From: Dictyobacter arantiisoli
GTDB taxonomy: Bacteria; Chloroflexota; Ktedonobacteria; Ktedonobacterales; Ktedonobacteraceae
Assembly (NCBI RefSeq): GCF_008326305.1
Contig: NZ_BIXY01000084.1
Location: forward strand, 1-32,940
DNA: 32,940 nt
Reading direction: 5' to 3'
Below, in pieces: positions 3,600 to 32,940 of this stretch; the first letter of the stretch is position 1; each line of letters starts with the position of its first letter. The position numbers and the translations under genes were made by a program. The notes under the pieces are model-generated. The model made no database searches and was not told the origin of the DNA. It saw only the letters and a list, made by a program, of their open reading frames with translations.

Positions 3600-3652
3600 T
3601 GGAATGAGTTTTCCTGTTCCAGGCAGAGCCTGGAACAGGAAAACTCATTCCA
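3600..3652. terminator. 25-bp perfect hairpin between convergent LLM genes
   Basis: Arms 3600-3624 and 3628-3652 are fully complementary around a 3-nt loop (aga). No long T-tract follows on either strand. The position, midway between two convergent stop codons, suggests a bidirectional terminator. The length and perfection are unusual and could also reflect a small inverted-repeat element. Confidence 0.6.
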
Positions 3653-10093: not shown

Positions 10094-10399
10094 AAAATCC
10101 CCAACAGAGAAGGCCGCACCTTCACGGTGAGGCTCCGTTTATCGTACGAACTTCTCGCCCCCTGGTGATGGATTCGAACCCGCATGGTAGGTGAGGTACG
10201 GCCTACGGGCGCGTGGCTCGTGCGTGATGAGGAAAGCGCACCTCGGCTGCGGCCTTGGCACGCACCTACATCGCTATCCCAACGTTCAGTTCCCTGCTCT
10301 GGCATTATTACTGCTTATGGGCGCGATGTCGGTACGTGGGACGGGAAAGTGGGACTCACGTTCGTTCGTGCCGCACCTACGTCTTTATTGGGGATTTTT
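10094..10399. mobile_element. Non-coding terminal-repeat element, degenerate copy (copy D)
   Basis: The outer ends aaaatccccaa (10094-10104) and ttggggatttt (10389-10399) are inverted copies. Inside are a 41-bp block (10231-10271) that by eye is identical to 31077-31117, a 25-bp block (10106-10130) that is the exact reverse complement of 31016-31040, and a diverged third block (10325-10383) sharing gatgtcggtacg with 31058-31069. No real gene is encoded. The structure suggests a MITE-like or nested element, older and more damaged than the copies at 30.8 and 32.7 kb. The rest of the 9777-10474 gap holds only the VOC relic and hairpin. Confidence 0.65.
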
Positions 10400-14156: not shown

Positions 14157-14194
14157 AGAGATGGAGGTGGTGCCAGGGCCGCACCTCCATCTCT
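14157..14194 (+). terminator. 13-bp hairpin after the membrane protein gene
   Basis: Arms agagatggaggtg (14157-14169) and its complement (14182-14194) enclose a 12-nt loop. The following tract is T-rich only in part (tcgtcattcttcg). It is probably a terminator between convergent genes. Confidence 0.55.
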
Positions 14195-14272
14195 TCGTCA
14201 TTCTTCGTCATTCTCGTTCTTTGAGCGGTATTGTCCAGGCCGGGTTTTGGGGCGTCTGGTGTGGGTGTGGAT

Positions 14273-14908
14273 CTAGAAGGCGGGAACGAAGCGCCAGCGC
14301 TGGTTGTTGGAGGGCGGGAAGTTGCGGGGATACGAGATGATGGGCGCGCCAGCCTCGGTACTGCTTCCGCTGATATCCAGCACATAGCCATTCAAGCGAC
14401 TGACAATATAGCCCTGTGAAGACACATACCATTTCTGATTGTCAGAAGGTGGGATGTTCTTTGGATAGGCGATAATCCGTGCGCCAGGAGCGGTACTGCC
14501 ACCGTTAATGTCCAGCACAAAGCCGGTCAACAGGCTGACAATATAGCCATCTCCCGCCAGATACCAGAGCTGGTTATAGGAGAAAGGCGTATTACGGGGA
14601 TATGCGATTAGCGGGGTAGCAGGCGCGTGGCTACCGCCACTGACGTCCAACACATAGTCATCCAACAAACTGGTAATATAGAAAATACCTACCGGCGCAG
14701 CCTGTATCTGATGCACCTTTGAAGTGTCCTGATGCGCCGAAGCTGCCAGCGTCGTAGGGACCATCCCGGCCAGCATGGTAGTCCCGCCCAGTGCGCCAGC
14801 CGCCAGCTTCAAAAAGCCAGCCCGCGACAGACTTGCATGCTCAGACTGCCCAATGGTATGGGATACGTTTGATTCTACTGTGGATGTAACATCATCATTA
14901 TGGCTCAT
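14273..14908 (-). CDS. Secreted ricin-type beta-trefoil lectin, Tat-like signal
   Basis: A 211-aa exported protein. Residues ~26-56 form a Tat-like signal (LSRAGFLKLAAGALGG, then AGMVPTTLAASA); the second Arg of the usual R-R pair is Ala, so the route is uncertain. The rest is three tandem ~43-residue units, each of the form G-Y-I-V-S-x-L-x-G-Y/F-V-L-D-I-x-G-G/S ... P-x-x-N-Q-x-W. The N-Q-x-W ends are the ricin Q-x-W signature of a beta-trefoil carbohydrate-binding domain. No catalytic domain is attached. The ATG at 14908 follows GGAGAG. It may bind polysaccharide outside the cell. Confidence 0.85.
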   Translation of the reverse strand: MSHNDDVTSTVESNVSHTIGQSEHASLSRAGFLKLAAGALGGTTMLAGMVPTTLAASAHQDTSKVHQIQAAPVGIFYITSLLDDYVLDVSGGSHAPATPLIAYPRNTPFSYNQLWYLAGDGYIVSLLTGFVLDINGGSTAPGARIIAYPKNIPPSDNQKWYVSSQGYIVSRLNGYVLDISGSSTEAGAPIISYPRNFPPSNNQRWRFVPAF

Positions 14909-30730: not shown

Positions 30731-30764
30731 TAAGCAACAATAATAGAGCAGAGCGTCGGGCCAC

Positions 30765-31117
30765 GATGTAGGTGCGTGCCGAGGTCGCAACCGAGGTGCG
30801 CTTTCCCGTTCATCGTACCATCCCCTCGGTCGAGACATGGAGTTGAGCATTAGGGGGATGCTGGTCGGTATAATCCCCATAAAGAAGCCCGAACCCTTGC
30901 GGTCGGGTCTTCTGGCTCGTACCGCAATCTCGCCCATAGGCCATCCGTACCCCAACATCCGTGCCGGGGACATGGGAGATACGTTGGGGCGGGGTGGTCG
31001 TACGTGAACGAAGCTTCACCGTGAAGGTGCGGCCTTCTCTCGGTGGGGCGGTGGCGAGATGTCGGTACGAGGAACAGGAAAGCGCACCTCGGCTGCGGCC
31101 TTGGCACGCACCTACAT
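30765..31117. mobile_element. Non-coding element with ~54-bp terminal inverted repeats (copy A)
   Basis: The left end (30765-30819) and right end (31064-31117) are inverted copies, agreeing at about 49 of 54 positions by eye. The core of the repeat is agcgcacctcggctgcggcc followed by ttggcacgcacctacat. The 353-bp unit has no convincing gene. The left end, with its 16-bp flank (30749-30806), is repeated at 32655-32712 with two mismatches. The right 41 bp recur at 10231-10271. It has the form of a MITE: small, terminal repeats, no transposase. I did not see a clear target-site duplication. Confidence 0.75.
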
Positions 31118-32621: not shown

Positions 32622-32670
32622 AACGGCTATCACCATACTTCCCCTGGCAAGGGACAGAGCGTCGGGAAAC

Positions 32671-32834
32671 GATGTAGGTGCGTGCCGAGGTCGCAACCGA
32701 GGTGCGCTTTCCTCGTCACGTACGATATGCTCACACGTAGGTCCATCCCTACCCCATCATCATGCCAGCGGCGAGATTACGGTACGATGAACCGGAAAGC
32801 GCACCTCGGTTGCGACCCTGTCTGTTACCCACAT
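32671..32834. mobile_element. Non-coding element with terminal inverted repeats (copy B, short)
   Basis: The left end 32671-32712 is identical by eye to 30765-30806 of copy A. The right end 32781-32834 (ggtacgatgaaccgg, gcacctcggttgcgaccctg ...) is the inverted copy with a diverged last third. The 164-bp unit is an internal-deletion form of copy A. It starts 49 bp after the membrane protein's stop and its right edge abuts the IS4-like remnant. Confidence 0.72.
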
Positions 32835-32838
32835 ATTT

Positions 32839-32940
32839 CTATTCAAGTGTGAGTTCAGAAGCCAGGTGAATTCCTTCTACAAGCGTTTGGATGTATAGCC
32901 AACCTTTCCAGAGGGTTTTCCAGCCTGGCTCTCCGTCTCC
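32839..32940 (-). pseudogene. C-terminal end of an IS4-like transposase, cut by the window edge
   Basis: Read on the minus strand from the window edge, the frame gives GDGEPGWKTLWKGWLYIQTL, then VEGIHLASELTLE and a stop. The P-G-W-K-T-L-W-x-G-W-x-x-x-Q-x-L-V-E-G motif is the usual end of IS4-family-type DDE transposases as I know them. Only about 33 codons are in view, so I cannot say whether the gene is intact. The repeat copy B ends 4 bp past its stop. Confidence 0.6.

Follow-up and report, generated by a model that had tools for sequence, protein, structure and literature searches.

GTAG-tagged REP units and inverted doublets in Dictyobacter arantiisoli, with a candidate RAYT partner

What are the repeated non-coding blocks in this stretch of chromosome, and by what means have they spread? 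The window (genome G000, contig C84, positions 1-32940; all 32,940 nucleotides analysed here) belongs to a 7.21-Mb draft genome of 256 contigs. A sequence-only reading of it had proposed a dispersed non-coding family with long inverted ends in at least three copies, designated A, B and D (Table 1), and had held that the lack of any other copies would count against it. Other copies do exist, and the family, mostly intergenic, is borne out: a 36-nt REP pattern, allowing up to 3 mismatches, matches the genome 134 times (57 + 77), and its reversed version not once. A profile built iteratively on the 40-nt core gave 113 hits at E ≤0.01 in 722 kb, made up of the window and 40 stretches picked for holding repeats. 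The best explanation, with a probability of about 0.88, is that A, B and D are part of a population of GTAG-tagged REPs and inverted doublets (REPINs, BIME-like mosaics) spread by a RAYT.

Table 1. Repeat copies, their constituent units and the adjoining insertion sequence, in window coordinates.
Feature	Start	End	Strand
Copy A: HH doublet, long and composite, REPIN/BIME-like, outer ends both GTAG-tagged	30765	31117	
Copy A, left REP unit; GTAG at 30768-30771	30767	30806	+
Copy A, right REP unit; loop variant GGCCGCAGCC	31077	31116	-
Copy B: HH doublet, right unit cut	32673	32817	
Copy B, complete REP unit	32673	32712	+
Copy B, REP unit truncated at hairpin core GGTTGCGACC	32794	32817	-
End of IS4-family (Tn5/IS50-like) insertion sequence, within REP core; contig end inside IS	32818	32940	
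Copy D, canonical REP unit	10231	10270	-
Copy D, variant GTAG-tagged hairpin	10349	10380	-
Copy D, arm 94% complementary to copy A interior 31007-31040	10106	10139	
Degenerate unit: module often 5' of GTAG tag, then GGAGGTG...CACCTCC palindrome	14204	14233	-

A repeat search of the window confirms the blocks noticed by eye. Copies A and B have 58 nt in common at 97% (30749-30806 and 32655-32712), and 43 nt of copy D (10231-10273) match copy A in inverse orientation at 93%. The inverted arms of copy A (30766-30828 and 31055-31117) are 63 nt long and 86% complementary, and those of copy B (32672-32712 and 32794-32834) measure 41 nt at 80%. Inverted ends are therefore present in both copies, as had been claimed, except that the last 17 nt of copy B (32818-32834) are the end of an insertion sequence and not repeat. 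Copy D, which had been called degraded, holds one canonical unit, a variant GTAG hairpin and a partial arm. An additional degenerate unit of the REP mosaic lies at approximately 14160-14233, with a perfect GGAGGTG/CACCTCC palindrome. The suggested folding check gave a clear result for copy A, which as RNA reaches -206.8 kcal/mol, 11 SD below dinucleotide shuffles (z -11.1); copy B, folded as DNA, gives a z of -5.9. Elsewhere in the window, a 135-bp sequence stands twice in tandem (14300-14569; 70% identity) and overlaps a 228-aa frame, and an inverted repeat at 3600-3652, perfect over 25 bp and with 3 nt in its loop, is perhaps a terminator.

The block common to the copies is a 34-nt unit composed of a GTAG tag, two unpaired bases and an imperfect hairpin. 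In the predicted fold, GTAG and GT are followed by a stem of 7 bp, two of them G-T pairs; above it come a 2x2 internal loop (GA/GA), an upper stem of 3 bp and a loop of 4 nt. Conservation was assessed in an ungapped alignment of 22 distinct variants, whose rows are variants and not events. The tag bases are invariant or at least 90% conserved, and the stem is paired in 94.5% of 220 cells, against 84.6% in shuffled alignments and only 29-47% (maximum 46.8%) when the partner strand is slid. Cells changed on both sides number 19, compared with 6.1 in shuffles, and four pairs are altered in this way; the variants keep the hairpin through double changes. Against the hairpin, 8 of the 22 variants lack pairing between columns 11 and 30. 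Single units folded alone as DNA are no more stable than shuffles. A REP of GTAG type was defined by GTAG or GTGG 0-2 nt 5' of the hairpin foot (a spacing rule from PMC6006769), a basal stem of 7-20 bp with a GC content of at least 50%, a bulge of 1-3 nt, an upper stem of 1-10 bp, high copy number and a tnpA-REP gene no more than 1000 nt from one of the members. The unit conforms in tag position, in the dimensions and GC content of stem and bulge, in copy number and, with the RAYT gene described below, in distance to a tnpA-REP gene.

Units occur singly, as inverted pairs and as tandem arrays, one of which (L046, 8613-9077) holds five units about 106 bp apart. Neighbours within 300 bp comprise 25 HH (GTAG outside), 13 HT and 2 TT pairs. 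For a REPIN or BIME, two inverse REPs may be at most 150 nt apart, and 23 of the 25 HH pairs lie within this distance. Eighteen doublets carry both tags, and 16 of them span 128-183 bp; the remaining two, copy A included, are longer, and the excess of copy A over the usual doublet length counts against the preferred explanation. The sequence-only reading had seen in A and B the form of a MITE, an account in which the arms would be terminal inverted repeats of a DDE transposon, mobilised in trans. The long inverted arms and compact interior of both copies fit that form, and elements of a mobile type with inverted ends, with a transposase gene among the copies, are indeed what is found; the signs of a DDE-type MITE are missing. 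The target duplications that might have been expected do not appear, with no direct repeat longer than 4 nt beside any of the 18 complete doublets (mean 1.33, against 1.06 when shuffled, with 2.6% of shuffles reaching this value). A further point against terminal repeats is that covariation marks each unit as a hairpin in its own right. Because duplications flank none of 18 doublets, single units and HT arrays are common, and the transposase among the repeats is a RAYT, a HuH/Tyr single-strand enzyme, a MITE in the usual sense is not supported and is highly improbable. An unsystematic look through 722 kb of the 7.21-Mb genome noticed no autonomous element with the same terminal repeats.

The RAYT gene was located with the RAYT-specific model NF047646, whose one hit in this genome (G000:C23:27639-28046) scores 82.3 bits against a cut-off of 80; so narrow an excess counts against the preferred explanation. 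The gene is intact; its frame (L121, 1426-1986) encodes 186 aa and is flanked on both sides by REP clusters (L047, 15165-15473 and 16151-16499), with units about 90 bp upstream and about 190 bp downstream. By chance, about 0.04 REPs would be expected within 2 kb of a gene (Poisson P for at least two, about 7e-4). Most REP units lie far from the RAYT gene, which also counts against the preferred explanation. In an alignment of nine RAYT-like proteins, hand-picked from NF047646 hit loci, HLH79-81 and Y151 are invariant in all nine. The E. coli motif WQ....EH..R has its counterpart in W130, Q131, E136, H137 and R140, the segment WQMSFYEHIIR aligning with WQPRFWEHAIR of 4er8. The E. coli residues W94, Q95, E100, H101 and R104 are discussed as GTAG-recognising in PMC6006769. 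Among PDB structures, an AlphaFold model of the protein (mean pLDDT 77.7) matches this same 4er8 best (E 7.4e-8), which holds E. coli TnpA-REP together with a REP hairpin; IS200/IS605 transposases come next. Membership in the RAYT group was judged on the HuH and Tyr residues, the W-Q...E-H..R motif and an NF047646 score above cut-off, all found here. Absence of a RAYT from the genome had been considered and was rejected: two whole-genome searches with Pfam Y1_Tnp missed it, returning an IS605-type TnpA as their sole hit, and NF047646 then recovered the gene, which as a single protein passes Y1_Tnp with 26.1 bits (cut-off 23). Across the class, NF047646 matches at E ≤0.001 in 36 of 47 genomes and exceeds its cut-off in only 4, and many of the weak matches coincide with IS200-type hits. 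Given the GTAG hairpin anatomy, the doublets and a RAYT between repeat clusters, copies A and B are read as REPINs; the RAYT, linked to the repeats and carrying the motifs, may mobilise them.

Locus L009 (G000:C50) carries an IS605-type tnpA beside a tnpB-like frame, the only Y1 transposase in the genome by the genome-wide Pfam search. Non-autonomous derivatives of IS200/IS605 elements are called PATE-like, and the repeats might be such derivatives of the genome's own element, moved by its TnpA instead of the RAYT. The presence of one tnpA-tnpB pair and the relatedness of the two enzymes lend this some plausibility. The ends of the IS605 element were nevertheless rejected as a source of REPs, since the stretches on either side, both read, contain no GTAG REP unit of the main family, and it is the RAYT, not the IS605 TnpA, that the repeats flank. 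Movement by TnpA is accordingly very unlikely.

Further variety lies in how the units are combined. Mosaics were mapped with models of three modules, U1, REP and D1, the first being a conserved upstream module found 5' of the tag in many copies. Among 52 U1 hits (E ≤0.05), the main unit comes next in 25, a GTGCGG form in 2, a GCATTG-type form in 2 and other GTAGG or GGAGG starts in 6, with none of these forms in 17. In many cases U1 opens with one half of a further hairpin, GTAGNARCCACCCTTCACGGGTGG. This hairpin is matched 76 times in the genome and never in four sisters; its class is GTAG-tagged and forms doublets of mostly 125 bp (L183-L200). Contigs C46, C83 and C132 begin with identical sequence 234 bases before a hairpin of this second class, which is therefore embedded in a longer repeat. 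A related hairpin gives 16 genome matches against 0 for its control, a few of the places with 3 mismatches being the main unit. In copy A and several other elements, hairpins of more than one class are joined into longer composites. A tentative and rather doubtful extension is that one RAYT serves several GTAG hairpin classes alike in structure and different in sequence (the main unit and the GTGCGGCCCGACG, GCATTG...CAATGC and CCACCCTTCACGGGTGG forms), reading shape and GTAG and not stem sequence, while the classes swap between common flanking modules and build composites of up to about 350 bp. A single enzyme would then be common to all classes.

The truncation of copy B has a separate cause. 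Its right unit stops at the hairpin core, exactly where the element end CTGTCTGTTACCCACA starts, and the contig terminates inside this IS4-family element. The same end (window 32818-32940; L155, L156 and L158-L165), at up to 1 mismatch, occurs at 14 places in the genome, adjoining a REP hairpin core in 10 and lying outside REPs in 4. Two other IS ends read CAGAAACTG and CAGTTTCTG, the pattern expected of a 9-bp duplication. In contig C68, about 1.55 kb separates the two ends of a copy whose transposase is broken and carries Tn5-type DNA-binding and dimerisation domains. On this reading, a Tn5-like IS with a preference for the REP core as its target later split the doublet of copy B.

The positions of the repeats relative to genes bear on another explanation, in which they would be selected RNA elements, terminators or mRNA stabilisers, spreading by helping expression of the upstream gene. 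Copies A and B do lie within about 50 bp past stop codons, as first described, and the strong RNA fold of copy A fits such a role. With frames called naively at a minimum of 120 aa, 49 of 73 REP clusters fall within clean gaps (tandem 27, convergent 17, divergent 5); of the remaining 24, 13 run into a called frame and 11 are clear of any. Per base, convergent gaps are over-represented and divergent gaps under-represented (chi-square P 0.005, 49 clusters), in a sample drawn from stretches chosen for repeats. Against an RNA function, no Rfam family reaches gathering score in the window, the repeats are private to one lineage, and known REPs are also reported to be biased downstream of genes (PMC3733652). 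The gap bias may be a by-effect, and RNA selection, whose probability is very low, would leave the copy number unexplained. That peptides have been mis-annotated from frames within the repeats, as also proposed, is plausible.

Of the 47 class genomes, only its own contains the REP core at the DNA level. The proposed search thus yielded many copies at home and none in the 46 other class genomes. Sister species were surveyed by BLAST in 20-kb stretches and by a simple scan beside RAYT-like genes, the candidates from the scan being mostly unconvincing. One sister, G023, has a different 19-nt hairpin with 141 matches, against 0, 2, 0 and 1 in G000, G024, G025 and G026, and copies of it stand beside 2 of the 4 RAYT-like genes examined. 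Of 9 copies, 2 have GTAG as the four bases 5' of this hairpin, each next to the RAYT-like gene in L135, and the other 7 have ATAN; because of the latter, the tag is not strict in G023. Around copy A, the GT87 neighbour is present in 8 of 31 genomes, its own included, a first search of genome contigs having found no related locus; the preceding ABC ATPase occurs at 0 of 9 relative loci tested, each with about 1.5 kb per side, and at none of these do the two neighbours of copy A stand together.

A single dedicated enzyme acting on single-stranded DNA, with its gene among the repeats, has probably spread them through the genome. Where replication or transcription leaves a region single-stranded, each unit would fold; the RAYT would bind hairpin and GTAG, nick beside the tag through its HuH/Tyr site, and excise and re-insert single units or doublets, resulting in slow intergenic spread without target duplication. 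Mosaic and tandem forms could arise from later rearrangement between palindromes.

GTAG hairpin repeats are a kind known from other bacteria. The present case is a well-documented REP/RAYT partnership in a genome that is large and lies beyond the groups mostly studied, and a sister species has a different hairpin next to its own RAYT-like genes. Common flanks carrying different hairpins offer a test of RAYT target recognition. The REP population also explains why this genome has long palindromes and short spurious frames, and why some of its contigs break. No report of REPs in Ktedonobacteria appears among the literature matches listed. T. roseum is reportedly the Chloroflexi case among the GTAG repeats of Di Nocera and colleagues from 2013. 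That study (Di Nocera et al. 2013, PMC3733652) includes Chloroflexi among the bacteria with GTAG repeats and mentions T. roseum as carrying GTAG-23 elements. Its families, as described, resemble ours in the GTAG tag, the imperfect GC-rich hairpin, clustering, intergenic bias and HH dimers mostly 20-100 bp apart. In the REPINs, BIMEs and RAYT REPtron of Quentin et al. (2018, PMC6006769), each REP type likewise has a single RAYT, and REPs of that type flank it; the present unit fits the hairpin rules given there. Unlike those REPINs and BIMEs, several elements here, copy A among them, are longer and combine hairpins of more than one class. Insertion at the axis of the REP palindrome is shared with ISRm22, of the IS4 family, which was always found in REPs (Tobes and Pareja 2006, PMC1525189), in contrast to the IS ends of this genome, four of which lie elsewhere.
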